This document shows, piece after piece, positions 2,281 to 20,886 of a stretch of DNA of 64,000 nucleotides. The DNA lies in NCBI RefSeq assembly GCF_001880325.1, contig NZ_CP016312.1, positions 1,922,001 to 1,986,000 on the forward strand, given 5' to 3'. Below the pieces are notes generated by a model. That model ran no database searches. It had not been told where the DNA came from and worked only from the letters and a program-made list of their open reading frames with translations. Both the position numbers and the translations under genes were made by a program. Source of the DNA: Thermus brockianus (GTDB lineage: Bacteria; Deinococcota; Deinococci; Deinococcales; Thermaceae). Position 1 is the stretch's first letter. Each line of letters opens with the position of its first letter.

Positions 2281-2810
2281 AGGGCTACAAGCGCCACCGC
2301 CTCTGCAAGGTCTGCACCCTCCCGGAGGACCTTCGCGACCGGGTGGACGCCATGCTCCTGGGGGAGGAGACGGAGGAGGACGGCAGGCCCTACAGCATGG
2401 AGGGGATCGCCCTCTGGCTCAGGGCCCAGGGGCACGAGGTGAGTCCCTCCAGCGTCCGCCGCCACGCCCGCCACCTGGCCCCTGCCTTGGATCAGGTCCT
2501 GCAGATGGAGCGCCTGGTGGAGGCGGTGGAGGAGGCCACGGGCAAGCGCCTCTCCTACGCCGCCGCCCTCGCCAACATCGTGGTGCACAAAGCTCTCCGC
2601 TACCTCCAGGACCTGGAGCTCGGGGAGGAGGTGGATCCGGAGAAGGTGGTGCGGCTCGGCCTCGAGGCCGCCCGGGTGGCCCTGAGCCTGGAGCGGCTGG
2701 ACCGCTCCCTAAGGGAGGAGGCGGCCCAGAAGGTGGAGGAGAGCCTCCGCGCCCGGCAGATTGAGCCCGAGGTCATAGAGGCCATCAAGCGGGACATCTA
2801 TGGACTCTGA
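2277..2810 (+). CDS. Mu gp27-like protein, probable small terminase subunit
   Basis: The 177-residue protein resembles the DUF3486/Mu gp27 family. An N-terminal recognition domain (residues 1-65: YKRHRLCKVCTLPEDLRDRV, then YSMEGIALWLRAQGHEVSPS with SSVRRHARHL) looks like a helix-turn-helix, and a long helical C-terminus follows. Proteins in this position act as the DNA-recognising partner of the terminase ATPase. It overlaps the terminase gene by 11 bases. The start is GTG 2277, coupled to the gene before. Confidence 0.75.
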   Translation: MKGYKRHRLCKVCTLPEDLRDRVDAMLLGEETEEDGRPYSMEGIALWLRAQGHEVSPSSVRRHARHLAPALDQVLQMERLVEAVEEATGKRLSYAAALANIVVHKALRYLQDLELGEEVDPEKVVRLGLEAARVALSLERLDRSLREEAAQKVEESLRARQIEPEVIEAIKRDIYGL

Positions 2811-4083
2811 GCGCCTCCTCCTCCCGTACCAGCGGCGCTGGGTGTGGGACCAATCCCGCTTCAAGATCGGCCTCTGGGCGAGGCAGACGGGGAAGAGCTT
2901 CGCCGGGACGCTGGAGGTGGTCCTGGACGCGGTGGAGCGCCCCGGCACCCTCTGGGTCCTCCTCTCCGCCGGCGAGCGGCAGAGCCGGGAGCTCGCGGAG
3001 AAGGCCAAGCGCCACCTCGCGGCCCTGAAGCAGGCGGCGGAGACCCTGGAGAGCCGCTTCTTTGAGGCGGGGGAGGAGGTGACCCAGCTGGAGATCCGCT
3101 TGCCCAACACGTCCAGGCTCATCTTCCTCCCCGCCAACCCCCGCACCGCCCGCGGCTACACCGGGAACGTCTTCCTGGACGAGTTCGCCTTCCACCAGGA
3201 CTCCGAGGCCATCTGGGCCGCCATGTTCCCCATCATCACGCGGAGGCCCGATCTCAAGATCAGGATCATGAGCACCCCCAACGGCCCCCGGGGCAAGTTC
3301 TACGAGCTCTGGGAGAAGGGGGGAGAGGTCTGGAGCCGGCACCGGGTCACCCTCCTGGACGCGGTGGCCGAGGGCCTGCCCATAGACCCCGAGGAGCTCC
3401 GGGCGGGCCTCGCCGACGACTTCATCTGGCAGCAGGAGTACCTCTGCGAGTTCGTCTCCGAGGAGGAGGCCTTCCTGCCCTGGACCCTCATCCTGCAGAA
3501 CGAGGCCCAGGAGGACCCCCGGGGGGAGTGGGACCCCGAGCGGGCCTACCTGGGGATGGACGTGGGGCGGCACCGGGACCTCACGGTCCTGGTGGTGCTG
3601 GAGCGGGTGGGGGACGTGTACTGGGCGCGCCTCGTGGAGGCCCTCCACCGGGCCCCCTTCGCCGAGCAGGAGGCCCGCCTCCACGCCCTCCTGCCCCGGG
3701 TGCGCCGGGCCTGCCTGGACGCCACCGGCCTGGGGGAGATGCTGGCGGAGAACGCCCGCCGCGCCTTCGGCTACAAGGTGGAGCCGGTGAAGTTCACCCC
3801 CGAGGTGAAGGCGGATCTGGCCCAGCGCCTCCGCCTCTTCTTTGAGGACCGCCGGATCCGCATCCCCGAGGACCGGGCCCTCCGGGAGGACCTCCACGCC
3901 GTGCGGCGGATCATCACCCCTTCCGGGAACGTCCGCTACGACGCGGAGAGGAGCGAGCGCGGCCACGCCGACCGCTTCTGGGCCCTGGCCCTGGCCCTGC
4001 ACGCCGCCGAAACCCGGAGGGGCCCCGTGGAGTACCGCAGCGTGGCCCGGCGGCTCTTCGCCGGCTGGAAAGGAGCCTTCTGA
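2800..4083 (+). CDS. Phage terminase large subunit (Mu gp28-like)
   Basis: This 427-residue protein is the DNA-packaging motor. The ATPase half carries a Walker A variant ARQTGKS (residues 27-33) and Walker B VFLDEF (about 125-130), followed by the coupling segment MSTPNG near residue 157. The RNase H-like nuclease half begins with the Asp-containing strand LGMDVGRHRD near residue 250, and further acidic residues occur at LDATGLGE and HADRFWALALA. Length and order fit a complete terminase. The gene overlaps its neighbours on both sides. Confidence 0.92.
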   Translation: MDSERLLLPYQRRWVWDQSRFKIGLWARQTGKSFAGTLEVVLDAVERPGTLWVLLSAGERQSRELAEKAKRHLAALKQAAETLESRFFEAGEEVTQLEIRLPNTSRLIFLPANPRTARGYTGNVFLDEFAFHQDSEAIWAAMFPIITRRPDLKIRIMSTPNGPRGKFYELWEKGGEVWSRHRVTLLDAVAEGLPIDPEELRAGLADDFIWQQEYLCEFVSEEEAFLPWTLILQNEAQEDPRGEWDPERAYLGMDVGRHRDLTVLVVLERVGDVYWARLVEALHRAPFAEQEARLHALLPRVRRACLDATGLGEMLAENARRAFGYKVEPVKFTPEVKADLAQRLRLFFEDRRIRIPEDRALREDLHAVRRIITPSGNVRYDAERSERGHADRFWALALALHAAETRRGPVEYRSVARRLFAGWKGAF

Positions 4084-5594
4084 TGCCCATCCTGGACCAG
4101 TACGGGAACCCCATCCCCAAGGAGCCCCCGGGGCAGGCCCGGGGCTTCCTCCCCCTGAACGACCCCTACCGGGTCTACCCCGCCCGGGGCCTCACCCCCG
4201 AGCGCCTGGCCCGCATTCTGCGCCAGGCGGATGAGGGGGACCTCGCCCTCCAGGCGGAGCTCTTTGAGGAGATGGAGGAGCGGGACGCCCTCCTCTTCTC
4301 CCTCCTCCAGACCCGGAAGCTGGCGGTGGTGGGGCTGGACTGGCGCTTGGAGCCCGCTGGGGAGGGCCGGGACGCCCGGCGCGTCCTGCGGGCGGTGGAG
4401 GAGGTCTTCTGGGACCTCCCCCTGGAGGACCTCATGACCGACCTCCTTTCCGCCATTCCGCAGGGGGTGAGCGTGGTGGCGGTGGCCTGGGAGTGGGATG
4501 GCCTTTTGTGGCGCCCCAAGGCCTTCCGCTGGGTCCACCCGGGCCTCTTGGTCTACCGCGCTGGAGAGGACCGCTTTTACCTGGCGGCGGGGCCCGGTCG
4601 GGAGGAGGCCTTCCCCTACGGCGGGGCTATAGAGCACCGCTACCGCGCCCGTTCGGGCCTGCCCACCCGCGCCGGGCTCATGCGGAGCCTGGCCTGGCTG
4701 TACGTCTTTAAGCACTACGCCCTGAAGGACTGGGTGATCTTCGCCGAGGTTTACGGCCAGCCGTACCGCATCGGCAAGTACGATCCCGCCGCCGGCGAGG
4801 AGGAGCGCCGCCGGCTGGAGGAGGCGGTGCGGAGCCTGGGGGCGGACGCCGCCGGGGTGATCTCCAAGGACACCGAGATAGAGATCCTCGAGGCCGCCAA
4901 GGGCCAGGGGCCCGAGGTCTACGAGCGCCTCATTCGCCTGGCCAACCGGGAGATGACCCAGGCGGTGCTGGGACAGACCCTCACCTCCTCGGAGGGGGAA
5001 GGGGGGAGCTACGCCCTGGCCAAGGTGCACGAGCGGGTGCGGATAGACCTCCTAAAGGCGGACGCCCGGGCCCTGGCCCGCACCTTGCGGGAGGGGCTTC
5101 TCAAGCCCTTCGTGGCCTTCAACTTCGGCCCCGAGCTCCTGGACCTCGCCCCCCTCGTGGTGCCCGAGGTGGAGGAGGAGAAGGATCTGGAGAGCCGGGC
5201 CCGGGTGCTCCAGACCCTCCTGGGCATGGGCCTCTCCATCCCCGAGGCCTGGCTCCGGGAGGAGTTCGGCGTCCCCGCCCCCGACCCCCAGGGCCCCGTC
5301 CTCACCCCCCTCCTCGCCCCCCAGGAGAGAAAAGAGCGGGGCCTGGTGGCGGGCCAGGCCTTCGTGGACGGCCTGGGGGATAGGCTCCTAGAAAAGGCCC
5401 CTATGCCCGGGCTTCCCGCCCTCCTCCAGGCCATCGGGGAGGCCGAGGGGTACGAGGACCTGAGGCGGCGCCTCCTCGCTCTCTTCCCCGGGATCTCCTT
5501 CGCCGAGCTCGCCCAGCTCCTGGAGGCCGCCCTCACCCTCTCCGAGCTCGCGGGGAGATGGGCCCAGCGGCAGGACAGTGGCCTGGACGGTTGA
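4083..5594 (+). CDS. Phage portal protein (Mu gp29-like, DUF935)
   Basis: The 503-residue protein matches the DUF935/Mu gp29 portal family in position, length and sequence style. Typical elements include LLQTRKLAVVGLDWRLEPAG near residues 75-95, FRWVHPGLLVYRAGEDRFYL near 150, and the helical segment FKHYALKDWVIFAEVYGQPY near 210-230. Portals form the dodecameric ring through which terminase drives DNA. The start ATG overlaps the terminase stop. The gene appears intact. Confidence 0.88.
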   Translation: MPILDQYGNPIPKEPPGQARGFLPLNDPYRVYPARGLTPERLARILRQADEGDLALQAELFEEMEERDALLFSLLQTRKLAVVGLDWRLEPAGEGRDARRVLRAVEEVFWDLPLEDLMTDLLSAIPQGVSVVAVAWEWDGLLWRPKAFRWVHPGLLVYRAGEDRFYLAAGPGREEAFPYGGAIEHRYRARSGLPTRAGLMRSLAWLYVFKHYALKDWVIFAEVYGQPYRIGKYDPAAGEEERRRLEEAVRSLGADAAGVISKDTEIEILEAAKGQGPEVYERLIRLANREMTQAVLGQTLTSSEGEGGSYALAKVHERVRIDLLKADARALARTLREGLLKPFVAFNFGPELLDLAPLVVPEVEEEKDLESRARVLQTLLGMGLSIPEAWLREEFGVPAPDPQGPVLTPLLAPQERKERGLVAGQAFVDGLGDRLLEKAPMPGLPALLQAIGEAEGYEDLRRRLLALFPGISFAELAQLLEAALTLSELAGRWAQRQDSGLDG

Positions 5595-6768
5595 GCCCGA
5601 CCCCCTGCGGCCCGAGGAGGCCCTCCGCTGGTTCCGGGCCCGCCTTCCCCTCCCCGATCCCGAGTTCCGCGCCCTGGGGGAGGAGGCGAGGCGCCGGGCC
5701 TTCTTCGTGGCGGGCCTCGCCGCGCTGGACATGGTGCAGGAGACGATGGACGCCCTCGCCCGGGCCCTGGAAGAGGGGAGGCCCTTTGAGGACTTCCAAA
5801 GGGAGCTTTCCGACCGGGTCAAGAACGCCTGGGGCGAGGGGAGCCGCCACCGCCTGGAGACCGTCTTCCGCACCAACCTCCAGCTGGCCTACGGGGCGGG
5901 GCGGTGGAAGGAGGCGGTCTCCGCCCGGGAGCTCAGGCCCTACTGGGGCCTCTCCGTGGTCCTGGACGGGCGCACCTCAAAGATCTGCCGGCCCCTCGCG
6001 GGGATCGTCCTCCCCGCCGACCACCCGTTCTGGCGCACCCACGTCCCGCCCCTCCACCACAACTGCCGCACCGCCCTGGTCACCTACACCCGGGAGGAAG
6101 GGGAGAGGCGGGCCTGGAAGGAGCCCCCTCCCCACGAGCCCCAGGCGGGCTTCGGCCGCCCCCCCACGGCGGAGGAGTGGAGCCCCGACCCCCGGGACTA
6201 CCACCCTGAGCTCTGGCGGGCCTTCCTGCGGGCCCTCGCCGCCCTCCCCGAGGCCCGGGCCCACCTCAGGGGCCTGGCGGAGAGCCGGGGCCAGGGGAGG
6301 CCCGCCCCTCGGGACTGGCTCTTCGCCGCCGGGGAGATGGTGCGGGCCCCCTTCAACCGCCGGGGGCGCTCCGTTCCCGAGGAGCTGAGGCCCCTTCTCG
6401 GCCGGGAGCGGGCCACCAGCCTGGAGCTCCACGTGGCCCAGCGGGTCATGGACGGGCACCTGGCCCCGGGCACCCCTCCCGAGGTCTACGAGGGCCTGTG
6501 CCGCGAGGCCCCGGCCCACCCCGAGGCCGCCCTCTTCGCCTACGCCCGGGACCAGGGCCCGGTGCTGGCCGCCCTGGCCCCCGCCTCCTTCATCCCCGAG
6601 GAGGCCCGGGGGCCCAGGCTCAAGGCCCTCTGGTTCGTGGTATACTCCTTCCACAGCGGGACGCTGGCCACCGGCTACAGCGTGCGGGACCTGAGCGAGC
6701 TGGACGTCCCTTGGGACAAGGTGGTATGGCTCAAAAGACCTCCCTGGCTTACGCCCCCCTCGCCCTAG
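5578..6768 (+). CDS. Mu F-like minor head protein (SPP1 gp7 family)
   Basis: This 396-residue protein has the phage Mu protein F / SPP1 gp7 core between residues 88 and 172: RHRLETVFRTNLQLAYGAGR, then LDGRTSKICRPLAG, then VPPLHHNCRTALV. The conserved Asp-Arg-Thr and Cys/His residues of that family are present. Members are minor head proteins acting in capsid assembly or DNA ejection. Residues 180-396 are a C-terminal extension that I do not recognise. In Mu the next genes encode G, protease, scaffold and capsid; here only one small gene follows. Confidence 0.85.
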   Translation: MAWTVEPDPLRPEEALRWFRARLPLPDPEFRALGEEARRRAFFVAGLAALDMVQETMDALARALEEGRPFEDFQRELSDRVKNAWGEGSRHRLETVFRTNLQLAYGAGRWKEAVSARELRPYWGLSVVLDGRTSKICRPLAGIVLPADHPFWRTHVPPLHHNCRTALVTYTREEGERRAWKEPPPHEPQAGFGRPPTAEEWSPDPRDYHPELWRAFLRALAALPEARAHLRGLAESRGQGRPAPRDWLFAAGEMVRAPFNRRGRSVPEELRPLLGRERATSLELHVAQRVMDGHLAPGTPPEVYEGLCREAPAHPEAALFAYARDQGPVLAALAPASFIPEEARGPRLKALWFVVYSFHSGTLATGYSVRDLSELDVPWDKVVWLKRPPWLTPPSP

Positions 6769-7707: not shown

Positions 7708-9396
7708 ATGGAGAAGCGGCTTTATTTCGGAGACAACCTCGAGGTCCTGCGGAAGCACATCCCCGACGAAAGTGTGGACCTCATCTACTTGGACCCTCCC
7801 TTCAACTCCAAGGCGGACTACAACGTCATTTTCCGCGAGCATACGGGCAAGGGCCCCGGGGCCCAGATCAAGGCCTTTGAGGACACCTGGAGCTGGGGGA
7901 TGGAGAGCGAGCAGGCCCTCCAGGAGGTGGTGGCTAAGCACGGGAGACTTGGGGAGTTCTTGGACTTCCTGGTGCGCTTCCTCGGGAAGAATGACCTCTC
8001 CGCCTATCTGGTGATGATGGCGGTGCGCCTTTTGGAGCTTCACCGGGTGCTCAAGCCCACGGGGAGCCTCTACCTCCACTGCGACCCCACTGCGAGCCAC
8101 TACCTGAAGGTCATCCTGGACCAGATATTCGGGCCCAAGAACTTTCGCAACGAGGTTGTTTGGAAGCGCACGAGTGCCCATAGCTCTGCCAAGAGGTGGG
8201 GGCCGGTGCACGATACGCTCCTGTTTTATACCAAGGGAGAGGAGTACACCTGGAATGTCGTCTACGAAAACTATGAAGAACGGTACATGGAAGACGAATA
8301 CGACTATCAAGACGCCAAGGGTAGATATGCCCTTAAGGATTTGACGGGGGCAGGAGCCAGCAAGGGCGACTCGGGGAAGCCCTGGCGGGGGATAGATCCT
8401 GGGGTAAAAAATCGTCACTGGGCTGTGCCCTCCAAGGATAAGCTCCCTTCGTGGCTTACCCCCCCGGATGACTGGGACGACCTTCCCGTGCAGGAGCGGT
8501 TAGACTTCCTGGACCGGGAGGGGTTGATTTACTGGCCTTCGCGTGGGGTCATGCCCCGCTTCAAGAAGTACCTGGACACCGCCAAGGGGGTTCCCATTCG
8601 GGATGTCGTCACCGACATCCCCCCCTTGGGCCACCACTCCAAGGAACGTCTTGGCTACCCCACCCAGAAGCCCCTCGTTCTCCTGGAGCGTATCATCCAG
8701 GCCAGTTCCAACCCCGGGGACGTGGTCTTGGATCCCTTCTGCGGGTGCGGCACAGCCCTCGCCGCCGCCGAGAAGCTGGGGCGCAGATGGATAGGCATAG
8801 ACATCACCCACCTGGCCATTACCCTCATCCAGGCGCGGCTGAGGCGGGACTTCGGCCTGGAGCCGGGGAGGGACTACGAGGTTCTTGGGACGCCCAAGGA
8901 CGTGGAGAGCGCCCGTTTTCTCTTTGAGAAAGACCCCCACCAATTTCAGCTCTGGGCTCTGGGCCTGATCGGGGCTCAGCCGTACGGGGACCCGCAAAAG
9001 GGAAAGAAGGGCAAGGACACGGGCATAGACGGCTTCCTCTACTTCCGCACCCCGGACGGGGGTAGGCTGGAGAAGGTCGTGGTCCAGGTCAAGGGGGGGA
9101 AGCGCCTGGGGCCCAGCGTGGTGAGGGACCTGCGGGGCGTGATGGAGCGGGAGAAGGCGGCCTTCGGGGTTCTCATCGTCCTGGAGGCCCCCACGCAAGG
9201 CATGCGGGAGGAGGCCGCGAAGGCGGGTGTCTATTCCTGGGGGAGCCAGTCCTACCCCAGGCTCCAGATCCTTACCGTGGAAGAGCTCCTCGCCGGAAAG
9301 CGCCCTGAGTTTCCCGCGGGAAGCCTCAACGTGAGCTACGAGCGCAAGGAAGTGCGGACGGCACGGCCAAAGGGGGGGATGGAGCCTTTGCTTTAG
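7708..9396 (+). CDS. DNA methyltransferase with C-terminal nuclease-like domain
   Basis: This 562-residue protein starts at ATG 7708 after GGGGGGAGG. The methyltransferase part has the catalytic motif DPPF (residues 29-32, in DLIYLDPPFNS) and the AdoMet motif DPFCGCGTALAA near residue 341 followed by GRRWIGIDIT. This order, catalytic motif first, is the beta group typical of type III Mod enzymes. Residues 410-545 add a restriction-endonuclease-like domain with GIDGFLYF and a QVKGGK strand, a PD-(D/E)XK/Mrr pattern. The middle (8200-8350) is richer in A/T than its surroundings, which suggests foreign origin. It lies in the rnpB cassette and may protect phage DNA or act as a fused restriction-modification enzyme. 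Confidence 0.85.
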   Translation: MEKRLYFGDNLEVLRKHIPDESVDLIYLDPPFNSKADYNVIFREHTGKGPGAQIKAFEDTWSWGMESEQALQEVVAKHGRLGEFLDFLVRFLGKNDLSAYLVMMAVRLLELHRVLKPTGSLYLHCDPTASHYLKVILDQIFGPKNFRNEVVWKRTSAHSSAKRWGPVHDTLLFYTKGEEYTWNVVYENYEERYMEDEYDYQDAKGRYALKDLTGAGASKGDSGKPWRGIDPGVKNRHWAVPSKDKLPSWLTPPDDWDDLPVQERLDFLDREGLIYWPSRGVMPRFKKYLDTAKGVPIRDVVTDIPPLGHHSKERLGYPTQKPLVLLERIIQASSNPGDVVLDPFCGCGTALAAAEKLGRRWIGIDITHLAITLIQARLRRDFGLEPGRDYEVLGTPKDVESARFLFEKDPHQFQLWALGLIGAQPYGDPQKGKKGKDTGIDGFLYFRTPDGGRLEKVVVQVKGGKRLGPSVVRDLRGVMEREKAAFGVLIVLEAPTQGMREEAAKAGVYSWGSQSYPRLQILTVEELLAGKRPEFPAGSLNVSYERKEVRTARPKGGMEPLL

Positions 9397-14908: not shown

Positions 14909-15271
14909 GTGTACCGGGACTGGCTTTTTGAGGACGGTGACTTCCGCTTCACCCCCAGGGGGGATGCGGCCCTGGTGGAGGGCCTCCAGGTGGTGCGTCA
15001 GGACCTCCTCGCCCGCCTCGTCTCCCCCCGGGGGAGCCACTGGGCCTTCCCCCATGAGGGAAGCGCCCTCCCCGACTACGTGCAGGCGGCCCTGGACGAG
15101 CTCACCCGAGTGGAGGTCCTGCAGGAAGCGGAGCGGACCTGCCTCGAGGACGCCCGGGTGGAGGAGGCCCGGGGGGAGTGGACGGAAGGAGGCCTCCGCC
15201 TCGCCTTGCGCCTCTCGGGGGAGGCCCTTAGGCTCCTCCTCCCCTGGCCCTTGGAGGTGAAGGGTGCCTGA
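14909..15271 (+). CDS. Baseplate wedge protein (gp25 / W-like)
   Basis: This 120-residue protein starts at GTG 14909. The opening YRDWLFEDGDFRFTPRGDAA, followed by VVRQDLLARLVSPRGSHWAF, matches the style of T4 gp25/P2 W/Mu gp46 proteins, which initiate the baseplate wedge. It lies between spike and J genes as in other contractile-tailed phages and overlaps the J gene by 8 bases. Confidence 0.82.
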   Translation: MYRDWLFEDGDFRFTPRGDAALVEGLQVVRQDLLARLVSPRGSHWAFPHEGSALPDYVQAALDELTRVEVLQEAERTCLEDARVEEARGEWTEGGLRLALRLSGEALRLLLPWPLEVKGA

Positions 15272-16298
15272 GCTTCCCCCTCTCCCCACCCTGGAGGAGG
15301 AGACCCAGAGGCTCCTCGGCTTCCTCCCCGAGGGCTTCCCCGTGCGGAACCCCGACAGTTTCAGCGCCTTCGGCACCTACCTGCGCCTCGCGGCCCAAGC
15401 GGCCCTCGAGGCCCGCGCCTTCACCCGGGAGCTCGTCCCCCAGCTCTTTGTGATCACCGCCACCGGCGCCTGGCTGGATGAGCACGCCAAGGGCCTGGGC
15501 CTCGCCCGCAAGGAGGCCCGGGGGGCCAGGCTCCGCTGCCGCGTCCTCGCCTCCGCTCCCGGCACCTTCCCCCCCGGGGCCCTCCTGGGGGTGGGGGAAC
15601 TCCGCTACCGGGCCGAGGGTCCCTTCGCCCCGGACGCCCTCGTGGAGGTCTGGAGCGAGGGCGTGGGGAGCCGCTACAACCTCCCCCCGGGGACCCGCCT
15701 CCTCCCCGTTACCGTGGTGGGGGGCCTCGAGGCCCTGGAGGTGGAGGAGGTCCTGGAGCCCGGCTTGGACCGGGAGACGGACGAGGAGCTCCGGGCCCGC
15801 CTCATTCTCGCCTGGCCCGCCCTGGGCCGGGGGAGCACCTACCACGCCTACATGAGCTGGGCCCTGGAGGACCCCGAGGTGCGGAAGGTCCAGGTCATAG
15901 ACGACCACCCCCGGGGCCAGGGCACCGTGGACGTGGTCATAGCCCCCGCCCGGGGCCTCCCTTCCCCCGAGCTCCTCGCCCGGGTCCAGAGGGTGGTGGA
16001 CGAGCGGCGGCCCCTCACCGTGAACGCCCTGGTGCGCTCCCCCAGCCCCCGGCCCCTGGACCTCGCCCTGCGCCTGCACCGCCTCCCGGGAAGCCCCTCC
16101 CTCGAGGCCTGGCGGGGCTTCGCCCTGGATTTCCTGAACGGGCTAAACATCGGGGAGACCTTCTGGCCCTCCCGCCTCATGGACCACCTGCACGACCGGG
16201 GAGGCCTCGAGGCGGTGGAGGTCCTGGCCCCCGCGGGACCTGTGGCCGTGGCCCGGGACGAGCTCATCGTCCCCGGGGAGGTGACGGTCTATGAGTGA
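15264..16298 (+). CDS. Baseplate J-like protein
   Basis: The 344-residue protein has the hallmarks of the baseplate J family (Mu gp47, P2 J). These include RELVPQLFVITATGAWLDEH followed by KGLGLAR near residues 55-85, GSRYNLPPGTRL near 140, and the core EVLEPGLDRETDEELRARLI near 160-180. It builds the periphery of the baseplate that triggers sheath contraction. It overlaps both neighbours. Confidence 0.9.
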   Translation: MPELPPLPTLEEETQRLLGFLPEGFPVRNPDSFSAFGTYLRLAAQAALEARAFTRELVPQLFVITATGAWLDEHAKGLGLARKEARGARLRCRVLASAPGTFPPGALLGVGELRYRAEGPFAPDALVEVWSEGVGSRYNLPPGTRLLPVTVVGGLEALEVEEVLEPGLDRETDEELRARLILAWPALGRGSTYHAYMSWALEDPEVRKVQVIDDHPRGQGTVDVVIAPARGLPSPELLARVQRVVDERRPLTVNALVRSPSPRPLDLALRLHRLPGSPSLEAWRGFALDFLNGLNIGETFWPSRLMDHLHDRGGLEAVEVLAPAGPVAVARDELIVPGEVTVYE

Positions 16299-17049
16299 GC
16301 TCGCCGAGGCCCTCTACCGCCACCTCCTCTCCCTCCTCCCCCCGGGCCGCTACCCCCGGGCGGGAAGGGCGGCGGACGGGATGGTGCGGGCCCTGGCCCA
16401 GGAGGAGGCCGACCTCATCCGGGAGGCCCTGGAGGCCTTCCCCCAGGCCTTCCCCCAGTACGCGGAAGGGGAGGCCCTCTCCCGGCTGGGCGAAGGCCGC
16501 GCCCTCCGCCGCTTCCCCCCCGACGAGCCGGACGCCTCCTACCGGGAGCGCGTCCGGCACGCCTGGGACTGGTGGCTCCGGGCGGGGACGAAGCCCGGCA
16601 TGGAGGCCGAGCTCGCCCGCCTTGGTTTTGTGGCCAAGGTGGTGGAAGGGCCCTTCGAGAACGCCTTTGACGGCACGTGGCACTTTGGGGACTACGAGGG
16701 CGCTTTCACGGGCCCTGCCTGGGCGGAGTTCATTTTGGAGGTCAGTCCAGCGGGGCCCTGGACCGCGCGGGAGCGGGCCTACCTGCGCCACGCGGTCCGG
16801 GAGCTCAAGCCCGCCCACGCGGTCCTGCGGGGGGTGGAGCTCTACGCCCAGGACCGCCGCGTCTTCCGCCTGCGGCCGCAGGCGGCGGTGGTCCTCCTGG
16901 ACCTTGGAGCTTTCGGGGACTTCCTCTTTGGCGACACCCGGCGGGTAGCGCTGGCGGGCGGGATGAGCCTCGCCGCCTGGGCCGAGGGCAGGATGGCCCA
17001 AGCCCAAGTGTTTGACGGAAGCTGGCGTTTTGGGGAGGTGGGATTTTGA
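16291..17049 (+). CDS. Tail protein I / Mu gp48-like
   Basis: This 252-residue protein follows J as tail protein I does. The helical N-terminus (LAEALYRHLLSLLPPGRYPR, then DGMVRALAQEEADLIREALE) is typical of the gp48/DUF2313 family. Residues 125-160 repeat the motif TWHFGDYEGAF, which recurs near the C-terminus as SWRFGEVGF and as LGAFGDFLFGD. These W/F-F-G repeats may connect the baseplate to the fibres. Confidence 0.75.
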   Translation: MSELAEALYRHLLSLLPPGRYPRAGRAADGMVRALAQEEADLIREALEAFPQAFPQYAEGEALSRLGEGRALRRFPPDEPDASYRERVRHAWDWWLRAGTKPGMEAELARLGFVAKVVEGPFENAFDGTWHFGDYEGAFTGPAWAEFILEVSPAGPWTARERAYLRHAVRELKPAHAVLRGVELYAQDRRVFRLRPQAAVVLLDLGAFGDFLFGDTRRVALAGGMSLAAWAEGRMAQAQVFDGSWRFGEVGF

Positions 17050-18517: not shown

Positions 18518-18901
18518 GTGACGGTGGAGCGCGTTGGAGACGGGCGGCACTGGGAGGCGCGGCTGGAAGGGGGCGTCCTCTATGTGGACGGGGTGGCGCT
18601 GGACCTCGAGGCCCTCTCCGGCCCAGAGCCCCAGCGGGTCTACGTCTACGCCACCCCCCAGGGCGGTCCCACCCTGGACCCCACCGACTGGCTGGGGGCG
18701 GAGGTCCTTCTGCCGGCTCGGCCGTTGGAGCAGGTGGAGGTGGGGGAGATGGTCTACCAGCTGGAGGACGGCGGCGAAGTGGTGGAGCGCCGGGAGCCCG
18801 TGTACGAGTGGCGCCCCACCCCGCTGCGGGCGGATTTGGTGCGGGTGCGGCTCTTCGCCCTGCCCATTTTGGACGCTTTGGAGGTGAGGCATGATCTTTA
18901 G
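18518..18901 (+). CDS. Fibre-linked small protein
   Basis: This 127-residue protein begins at GTG 18518, three bases after the fibre stop, and overlaps the next gene by 11 bases. It is acidic with alternating strands and turns (RVYVYATPQGGPTLDPTDWL, then VEVGEMVYQLEDGGEVVERR). Wedged between the fibre and the lectin-fold protein, it may link the variable protein to the tail. No family is recognised. Confidence 0.65.
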   Translation: MTVERVGDGRHWEARLEGGVLYVDGVALDLEALSGPEPQRVYVYATPQGGPTLDPTDWLGAEVLLPARPLEQVEVGEMVYQLEDGGEVVERREPVYEWRPTPLRADLVRVRLFALPILDALEVRHDL

Positions 18902-19997
18902 CGTGAAGGATAGTCTGCGGCAAGCGGTAGAGGCGGCGTCAGGAGGTCTGTGCACGGTGATGTACACCAAAAAGGGGCAGCCGCTCTTCATGCGGCGCAT
19001 CCCCCGCTTCAACCTGGAGCAGCTCGGGCCCCAGTTCGGCTCCGGCCCCCACCCGGCGTTTGTGGTGAACGGGGAGACCAAAAGCGAGATTTGGGTCTCC
19101 ATGTACCGCGCCGTGCTCTCCAATGGCGAGCTCGTGAGCGTCCCCGGCCAGAATGCGTCATTGCTCACCTACGATCAGGCCGTGGCCTACGCCGCGGCCA
19201 ACGGCCCCGGCTTCCACCTCATGACCCGGGCGGAGTTCATGGCCGTGGTCCTCCCCGAGTGGCTCAAGGCGGGCAAGACTGACCCCCCCATCCGGGGCAA
19301 CACGCAGTGGGGGCGCTCGCACGAAGCGCCCTACGAGTGGGGGGTGCGGGTGGATGGGCAGGCTCCGGGCACGACGACGGGAGACAACGCTACCCTTGCT
19401 GGGTCTGGGCCTCTAGCATGGCGGCATGACGGCACGCCATTCGGCGTGGCCGACATTTTTGGCAGCCGTTTTCTCTGGTTTGGGGGGCTCCGCGTCAACT
19501 ACGGGCGCATAGAGATCATCCCCGATGCGAGCCTGGATCTATCCCTAGCTTCCCCCAACTGGATGGCCATCCGGGCGTCGGACGGGGCGCCCGTCACGCC
19601 CCAGTCGGGGCAGACCGGGGTCCTGTATTACAAAAAGGACCCCACGAAGAGCTTCACGGACGACGGCGTGAGTCAAAACGTCGGCCCCGCCATCCTGGGC
19701 ACGAGCCCAGACACATTCCCCAGCGGGTGGGACGAAAACACGACTACACAGGATTACGTGACCAACTCGAGCATGAGCCTCGCTTACGAGTCGGGGCTCA
19801 CCCCCCCCACCATCGCCTACGCGTTGGGCCTCGTGCCCATCCCCGGGGTGACGAAGGGGGCGTTCCTCGATTATGTCCAGTTGGCCGGCAAGAACCCAGC
19901 CCAAAACCGGGCCCGGCCAGATTGGTCGAGCAATGTAGTTTTCGGGTTAGGCTTTTCTCATAGTCCCTCTAACGCCTTCGTAGTCTGGGCGTTGTGA
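18891..19997 (+). CDS. DGR-type variable protein with FGE/C-type-lectin fold
   Basis: The 368-residue protein is the last phage gene. Residues 90-130 (LLTYDQAVAYAAANGPGFHL followed by MTRAEFMAVVLPEW) and 160-215 (GSGPLAWRHDGTPFGVADIF, then LWFGGLRVNYGRIEIIP) match the formylglycine-generating-enzyme-like C-type lectin fold used by DGR variable proteins. A homologue, TaqVP, is known from Thermus aquaticus. The C-terminus (RPDWSSNVVFGLGFSHSPSN, then AFVVWAL) is where DGR variable regions lie. Its codons are far less GC-rich at third positions than the rest. It would be the receptor-binding tip. No reverse transcriptase or template repeat was found in the window. Confidence 0.8.
   Translation: MIFSVKDSLRQAVEAASGGLCTVMYTKKGQPLFMRRIPRFNLEQLGPQFGSGPHPAFVVNGETKSEIWVSMYRAVLSNGELVSVPGQNASLLTYDQAVAYAAANGPGFHLMTRAEFMAVVLPEWLKAGKTDPPIRGNTQWGRSHEAPYEWGVRVDGQAPGTTTGDNATLAGSGPLAWRHDGTPFGVADIFGSRFLWFGGLRVNYGRIEIIPDASLDLSLASPNWMAIRASDGAPVTPQSGQTGVLYYKKDPTKSFTDDGVSQNVGPAILGTSPDTFPSGWDENTTTQDYVTNSSMSLAYESGLTPPTIAYALGLVPIPGVTKGAFLDYVQLAGKNPAQNRARPDWSSNVVFGLGFSHSPSNAFVVWAL
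19914..19994 (+). other. Probable DGR variable region (VR)
   Basis: The last 27 sense codons of the lectin-fold gene include 12 ending in A or T (for example GTA, TTA, TCT, AGT, CAT), whereas neighbouring genes use almost only G/C there. Adenine-directed mutagenesis during DGR retrohoming gives exactly such odd codons. The boundaries are approximate because the template repeat is not visible here. Confidence 0.55.
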
Positions 19998-20011
19998 CGG
20001 CGGGGCTAGCT

Positions 20012-20038
20012 AGGGTCGGGGCATGGAGCCCCGGCCCT
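20012..20038 (+). terminator. GC hairpin after the variable protein gene
   Basis: An 11-bp stem (20012-20022 with 20028-20038, one T-G pair) has an ATGGA loop and lies 15 bases after the stop codon. It is followed only by CTACTTTA, a poor U-tract. It may be the late-operon terminator or the stem-loop that DGRs place just downstream of the variable region. Confidence 0.6.
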
Positions 20039-20041
20039 GCT

Positions 20042-20168
20042 ACTTTACATGATAACGCTCATGTTCCGTGCGCATAAACGCTCACCTTACGAACCTCAAA
20101 ATGACCGAACTCAGTCAAACTGCACTAAAAAGATGACTGAAATTGACCTCGAAGCGTGACGCGTGACA
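20042..20168. mobile_element. Prophage right end (attR-type terminus)
   Basis: This A/T-richer non-coding end finishes with CA at 20167-20168; read inward it starts TGTCACGCGTCACGC, the TG...CA style of Mu-family transposons. It contains direct repeats suitable as transposase sites: AACGCTCA at 20054 and 20077, ATGACCGAA at 20101 and ATGACTGAA at 20133, and a tandem GCGTGAC at 20154-20167. The junction with rnpB follows immediately. Confidence 0.8.
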
Positions 20169-20365
20169 GTGGGCTCTTACCCCACCGTTTCACCCTTACC
20201 CGCACCGGGCCTTGGGCCCGGCCGCTGGCGGTCTCTTTTCTGTGGCACTTTCCGTCGGGTTACCCCGCCCAGCCGTTAGCTGGCACCCTGCCCTATGGTG
20301 CCCGGACTTTCCTCACCCAAGGGGGTTTGGCCCCTTGAGCGCGACCGCACCCCTGTCCCGGGGCA
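20169..20365 (-). pseudogene. rnpB: Chromosomal RNase P RNA gene, 5' half only, cut by the prophage
   Basis: On the minus strand the RNA starts near 20365 and contains the P1 5' strand, the core GAGGAAAGTCCGGGC and the helices up to GGTAAGAGCCCAC. Phage DNA replaces the rest after 20169. It lines up with the first ~200 nt of the prophage copy with about a dozen differences and a 1-2 base indel. Without the 3' half (P1 and P4 partner strands, P15-P17) it cannot form an active ribozyme. Its promoter is intact. Confidence 0.95.
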
Positions 20366-20670: not shown

Positions 20671-20886
20671 GTGAAAGAGGGCATTCATCCCAAGCTGGTT
20701 CCCGCCCGCATCATCTGCGGGTGCGGCAACGTGATCCACACCTACTCCACCAAACCCGAGATCCACGTGGAAGTGTGCAGCAAGTGCCACCCCTTCTACA
20801 CGGGCCAGCAGCGCTTCGTGGACACCGAGGGGCGGGTGGAGCGCTTCCAACGGCGCTTTGGCGATTCCTACCGCAAGGGGCGTTAG
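20671..20886 (+). CDS. rpmE: Ribosomal protein bL31
   Basis: The 71-residue product ([20 protein letters not shown] and onward) is the zinc-binding type of bL31, with Cys residues in CGC and CSKCH. The protein bridges the ribosomal subunits. The start is GTG 20671, preceded by GGAGGAGG; an upstream in-frame GTG would add residues not found in the family. A terminator follows directly, so the gene is monocistronic. Confidence 0.97.

Follow-up and report, generated by a model that had tools for sequence, protein, structure and literature searches.

The Mu-like prophage whose right-hand part lies in the window (the whole stretch of Thermus brockianus DNA analysed here, 64,000 nucleotides) very probably carries a lectin that was once a DGR target and from which both the retroelement cassette and the variable region (VR) have gone; the same phage splits the host RNase P RNA gene, rnpB, near mraZ and carries a copy of its own. 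The lectin gene is a plain example of a DGR target that has no retroelement, beside relatives that still have one, and the rnpB-splitting phage is the more surprising part of the two. The first-pass annotation of this DNA, made from the letters alone, was right in its overall observation on the lectin, the insertion in rnpB having escaped it.

The Mu-like prophage and its last tail gene

The prophage occupies 34,522 bp (G000:C1:1907647-1942168), with TGT...ACA ends, and is flanked by the host genes mraZ and rpmE. The genes for MuA, MuB, the S24 repressor and gpT lie to the left of the window. The following features are referred to below, by window position and strand.

1-20168, +, in-window part of the Mu-like prophage
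2800-4083, +, terminase large subunit
4083-5594, +, Mu-type portal protein
5578-6768, +, Mu F-like minor head protein, followed by the phage rnpB
7316-7687, +, complete RNase P RNA gene inside the phage (class A, RF00010, 272 bits (272.2), positions 1-367)
7708-9396, +, DNA methyltransferase with an Mrr-like nuclease domain, immediately downstream of phage rnpB
10125-12941, +, tape measure protein
15264-16298, +, baseplate J protein
16291-17049, +, Tail_P2_I tail protein
18891-19997, +, TaqVP-type C-type-lectin protein (368 aa), closing the tail module of the phage
19881-19994, +, codons 331-368 of the lectin, a C-terminus at the place of the VR with no detectable VR similarity and pLDDT mostly <50
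19998-20168, +, right phage end, 171 bp, terminus ...GCGTGACGCGTGACA
20169-20173, no strand, target-site duplication GTGGG, 5 bp, the other copy lying by the left end (G000:C1:1907642-1907646)
20169-20360, -, host rnpB 5' fragment (1-191 of 372, by alignment), cut by the phage
20671-20886, +, host rpmE (L31), flanking the insertion on the right

The Mu-like nature of this element is indicated by a transposase and its ATPase, by defined termini with a 5-bp duplication and by Mu head genes; target duplications of 5 bp are also those made by Mu. The transposase and the MuB-type ATPase were recognized by an rve match of 31.8 bits, just under the Pfam cut-off of 32.6, and by phrog_310 (1.4e-44) and phrog_296 (6.3e-40), and the head genes by Portal_Mu, Phage_Mu_F, Mu-like_gpT and the protease model Mu-like_Pro. 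Near-random insertion, another Mu-like trait, is not displayed by this phage lineage. The methyltransferase-Mrr fusion gene, whose third positions are richer in A/T than those of most other genes of the phage, is likely a recent cargo.

The description of the final tail gene as a DGR-type C-type lectin resembling TaqVP was borne out at the levels of sequence and fold. With phmmer, the 368-aa protein gives a match of 2.7e-112 to TaqVP, a DGR variable protein of T. aquaticus with a crystal structure (PDB 5VF4), its reading frame matches phrog_2889 at 1e-75, and the 5VF4 chains are the sole strong PDB matches of its AlphaFold model with Foldseek (1.2e-45). The body of the lectin is homologous in both respects to the TaqVP-type variable proteins (phrog_2889, FGE-type C-lectin), and its product is presumably the receptor-binding tip protein of the tail.

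The missing DGR cassette and the 3' end of the lectin gene

The DGR machinery to be expected beside such a gene can be described from its relatives, in which the order is variable protein (VP), Avd, template repeat (TR) and reverse transcriptase (RT). A set of 84 VP loci was collected, one record being counted twice (L017, L020); most of it was obtained by scanning with patterns of TaqVP, one of which lay inside the VR, so that the set leans to intact VRs. The 42 of these 84 loci with at least 2.5 kb of downstream sequence were taken into the RT count, made by tblastn with two DGR RTs; an RT was found in 33 and Avd in 34 of them. In the Thermus relative L017, the differences between TR and VR fall at TR adenines in 10 cases out of 10. 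In T. aquaticus prophage 2, according to excerpts of PMC4605624, the TR and the RT are located between the VP and the L31-side phage boundary, whereas the interval between the VP and the phage end measures only 171 bp in the present phage. The position of this end, placed by the first-pass annotation 171 bases past the lectin, is exact (20168).

None of this machinery was found. The genome (2.39 Mb in 3 contigs, 99.8% complete) gave no match in a whole-genome search with the RVT_1 profile, a model that does detect the DGR RTs accompanying the same VP family. No match was obtained either with a DGR RT protein as query against the genome, an empty answer which alone is weak proof. DNA resembling a template repeat of 19640-19997 is absent from the genome beyond chance-level matches. 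Within an 81-kb region of the genome, no template repeat was found when only adenine mismatches were forgiven, and nothing above noise was obtained for Avd. The absence of Avd, template repeat and RT after the lectin, reported from the window, therefore extends to the whole genome for the RT and the TR and to 81 kb for Avd. Three explanations had been offered for it: a diversification acting in trans, one acting from the left part of the prophage, or one that has ceased. Since the genome yielded neither RT nor TR, and the 81 kb no Avd, the first two fall, a DGR in the left part of the prophage being rejected on these grounds, and the third stands. DGR diversification of the lectin has ceased, and the place where synteny would put the cassette does not contain it; such a cassette would once have been present in this phage lineage.

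Among the genomes compared, RVT_1 matches in G008 and G022 (L018, L019) correspond to a 588-aa protein and were rejected as DGR RT. This RT is probably CRISPR-associated, because a Cas1-like frame, recognized by eye from its motifs, lies beside it in G008.

The lectin has also lost its C-terminal VR. The framework RGGxW...GxR.AF, kept in 77 of the 84 VP homologues (the seven exceptions are L014, the twin of the window, and six records that are truncated or broken), is absent from the window lectin; it is not restored in any other frame, and a frameshifted normal VR is rejected accordingly. Scored against a profile of the C-termini of 76 relatives, the last 42 residues reach -0.1 bits, a value equalled or bettered by 296 of 939 scored shuffles, and the sibling prophage of G022, itself among the 76, scores 39.3 with the same profile. 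The GC-rich, IMH-like 3' end of the VR visible in L015-L017 was not seen in the window lectin on inspection by eye, and a search of IMG/VR with the 75 C-terminal residues gave no relatives. With one and the same 37-sequence set, AlphaFold gives a pLDDT of 28-55 across the final ~45 lectin residues and of 88-96 for the VR of TaqVP taken as a control. Modelling, suggested by the first-pass annotation, thus upholds the TaqVP-like fold found by Foldseek and gives no such support to the C-terminal tip.

The unusual codon ends on which a mutagenised 3' end had been proposed do exist. A/T occupies the third position in 12 of the 27 terminal codons, exactly as counted at first, the mean over the 52 genes called in the prophage being 8.5%, and the excess has P ~0.001-0.002 given the gene's own composition. 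It is nevertheless not peculiar to the lectin 3' end, because the lectin gene has a second A/T-rich block, with 11 of 27 at codons 163-189, and the count is as high as 13 of 27 in the methyltransferase gene. Odd codon ends by themselves are no proof of a variable region, and the reading of this 3' end as one is contradicted by the last ~40 residues, which have no detectable similarity to the VR of the relatives.

A comparison between strains can be made with the prophage of T. tenuipuniceus YIM 76954 (L014/G023), whose lectin 3' end is identical to that of the window. The tail halves of the two prophages have ~5 differences in 15 kb, and their lectin genes 2 differences in 1107 bp, at codons 319 and 330, with none in the last 38 codons. 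The excess of A-site variation that continuing diversification had been expected to leave between strains is absent from the lectin 3' end in this one pair of strains; as a single pair of near copies, it argues against recent diversification only. Both differences (window positions 19846 and 19879) are A/G, change a residue and lie 33 bases apart, just upstream of the former VR.

In T. aquaticus, the record L015, taken as prophage 1, has a VP that does not differ from TaqVP and whose VR is intact, and no RT in its 32 kb. It is a possible candidate for diversification in trans by prophage 2 of the same strain, in which the RT and the TR are present (PMC4605624, in the excerpts used). This precedent is what could be invoked for a window lectin still diversified in trans by a DGR belonging to another phage, co-resident or incoming. 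Such a situation is extremely improbable here: the RT and the TR were not found in this genome, the lectin 3' end has neither the VR nor the GC-rich motif of L015-L017, and it recurs unchanged in another species.

A different possibility is that the C-terminus is a pseudogene tail, its tip unfolded and the protein in the course of being lost. The low predicted confidence over the last ~45 residues would agree with this, as would the 75 terminal residues without relatives in IMG/VR and the unusual codon ends. Low pLDDT in a sequence without relatives is weak evidence, however, the frame is fully open, the body of the protein is highly conserved and only 2 differences in 1107 bp separate it from the T. 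tenuipuniceus copy, so that we regard this possibility as somewhat doubtful. The preferred reading is that of a one-time DGR variable protein, the variable C-terminus of which would have been swapped out or eroded past recognition. The lectin is now a fixed tail-tip protein, or a partly decayed one, outside any DGR system.

Host rnpB split by the phage, and the probable replacement by a phage-borne copy

The host rnpB is split by the prophage with a target duplication, a further copy of the gene is carried by the phage, and this situation recurs in other Thermus genomes. Three RNase P RNA matches were obtained with Rfam in the T. brockianus genome, one complete and two partial. Alignment identifies the two partial matches as pieces of one host gene with the 34,522-bp element between them: the fragment abutting the right phage end faces another, covering positions 187-369, at G000:C1:1907646-1907465, 34.5 kb away and left of the window. 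The complete gene is that of the phage. Its full-length match exceeds the gathering score and is host-like, the 21 uninfected Thermus genomes scoring 261-286, and it is the sole intact RNase P RNA gene found in this genome. On this basis, the phage copy is likely to be functional and essential to the lysogen, and the cell appears to be kept alive by the phage's own rnpB. The truncated host gene retains its 5' end (minus strand, window 20360 down to 20168 onward); a transcript started at its promoter would therefore continue into the end of the phage, in antisense orientation relative to the lectin gene.

In Thermus, the transposase (MuA) is present in 6 of 27 genomes. All six have a broken host rnpB, a complete phage copy and more than one RNase P RNA match, and one intact rnpB is found in each of the 21 transposase-free genomes. 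The phage rnpB comes after the Mu F gene in all six prophages. The break points lie at ~191, 203, 285 and 325, and at 231 for the right end common to G010 and G011; that of the metagenomic contig L144 lies at ~313. An internal rnpB is also carried by metagenomic phage contigs, and the scan of viral records for RNase P RNA gave 1 positive among 26 scanned.

The phage rnpB could be thought of as functionless passenger DNA picked up by accident, and the rnpB tree, in which phage and host copies are interleaved, could be read in that sense. This tree is poorly resolved and no single capture can be shown from it. Completeness and host-like scores in 6 of 6 Thermus prophages, each time after the Mu F gene, the rnpB of metagenomic phage contigs, and the lack of any other intact RNase P RNA match in those six genomes, where the host copies are partial, make this reading very unlikely.

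Two arrangements deserve mention separately. The prophages of G010 (L136, L137) and G011 (L168, L138) have a common right junction (rnpB 231), different left junctions and diverged transposases, which looks as if resident and incoming phages had exchanged their left halves. In the viral contig L149 (4-1888), the Mu F gene, a complete rnpB and rpmE stand one after another in a single direction and the rnpB groups with a host copy; this is either a rearrangement or an assembly artefact.

The other genera of Thermaceae contain a related transposase in 9 of 23 genomes, each with one intact rnpB. Phage genes adjoin rnpB on its mraZ side in 8 of these 9, a placement pieced together from separate contigs for G057, G059 and G072. 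The exception is G053, the only one of the 15 MuA-positive genomes in which the phage lies elsewhere than at rnpB/mraZ. Among the Thermaceae phages examined, rnpB is carried by those of Thermus only.

Insertion upstream of mraZ and comparison with known systems

In all 10 mapped prophages the left end is found 178-369 bp upstream of mraZ, counted from its start, and the orientation is the same. The flanking 5-mers match in six of them (G000, G022, G023, G024, G069 and G074). Matching duplications are absent in G010, G011, G061 and G070; because their flanking 5-mers disagree, the ends of these four do not come from one simple insertion, and they presumably result from two insertions, or from deletions. 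The spacer between rnpB and mraZ measures 184-195 bp in 19 of the 21 uninfected Thermus genomes; the two that remain have 593 and 773 bp. In the 10 genomes of other genera where both genes were found, it measures 213-499 bp in seven and 770-1294 bp in three. Because the Thermus spacer is short (~187 bp), the 178-369-bp window falls mostly inside rnpB in Thermus only. The Mu-like lineage would then insert upstream of mraZ in a fixed orientation and cut rnpB where this host genus is concerned, the choice of target being anchored at mraZ and the spare ribozyme being its consequence.

Insertion might instead occur anywhere, the prophages at rnpB and upstream of mraZ being retained since the loss of a phage holding the only rnpB is lethal. 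A phage copy that has become the sole intact rnpB would indeed be expected to make a prophage hard to lose, and the Mu-like phages of Pseudomonas insert mostly randomly, with hotspots, according to excerpts of PMC5977238. Selective retention nevertheless seems unlikely. In other genera the phage is found at the same place although rnpB is intact and no second copy was found, one orientation is seen in 10 of 10 mapped prophages, and none of the Thermus insertions lies elsewhere. We infer directed transposition in preference to a filter by selection, that is, a site-directed Mu-like transposition accompanied by a rescue ribozyme.

CCCAC repeats, which we take to be MraZ binding sites, are present at ~97-150 bp upstream of mraZ. 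An MraZ-like protein is encoded near MuB in four non-Thermus phages, as follows.

L177:18594-19073 (G070), MraZ-like protein
G059:C89:36831-37205, MraZ-like protein
G057:C18:16394-16768, MraZ-like protein
G072:C85:5647-6030, MraZ-like protein

This protein is possibly a target selector or a regulator. None was found by the same model in the Thermus phages; a phage MraZ is therefore not the whole answer, and the host MraZ could serve. MraZ bound to its repeats, or the MraZ-like protein of the phage, may act as a beacon for the MuA/MuB machinery, and where the target window overlaps rnpB, as in Thermus, the phage would bring a spare ribozyme and the lysogen would rely on it for tRNA maturation. 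The complete scheme, in which integration is directed by a host or phage MraZ and a spare ribozyme makes the lysogens dependent on their phage, is put forward as a tentative proposal, quite possible in our opinion.

A literature search, with most subscription journals outside its reach, gave no report of a prophage in rnpB, of a phage RNase P RNA, or of a site-directed Mu-like transposition combined with a rescue ribozyme. Two prophages flanked by mraZ and L31 are noted in the excerpts used of PMC4605624, an article in which the terms 'RNase P' and 'rnpB' have 0 occurrences; RNase P is likewise unmentioned in the excerpts used of PMC6328139.

Among the closest known systems is the DGR of T. 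aquaticus Y51MC23 with TaqVP (5VF4), as described in excerpts of PMC6328139 and PMC4605624: the variable protein is homologous, and mraZ and the L31 gene are likewise the neighbours of prophage 2. That system has Avd, TR, RT and a VR that is intact, whereas the phage of the window has none of the four. Mtd of the Bordetella phage BPP-1 shares with the window lectin an FGE-type C-lectin fold, with a C-terminal VR (PMC6328139, in part), but the window lectin has no active VR and the type of phage differs. The Pseudomonas saltoviruses, as far as the excerpts of PMC5977238 go, resemble this prophage by their DDE transposase, MuB-type ATPase and Mu head genes; their insertion is mostly random with hotspots, in contrast to the Thermaceae phages, which share one orientation at a place upstream of mraZ. 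These phages would also make the choice of target by MuB-type proteins testable in a heat-stable system.

Tn7-type elements possess a dedicated target selector. They share with the present element a single preferred chromosomal site, an ATPase with an rve transposase, and 5-bp duplications. The present element differs from them in being a phage and in the spread of its insertion position over ~190 bp, and no TnsD/TniQ was recognized in the 9 small phage genes scanned, a subset of the small genes. Prophages inserted in tRNA or tmRNA genes also have an essential RNA gene as target, as rnpB is here, and they restore the 3' end of that gene. No such restoration takes place at the rnpB junction; a whole second gene is carried instead in the phage interior. 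If this is confirmed, the combination of a fixed target and a replacement RNase P RNA in one transposable phage would represent a new way to survive insertion in an essential RNA gene, one in which the replacement RNA binds the host to its prophage.
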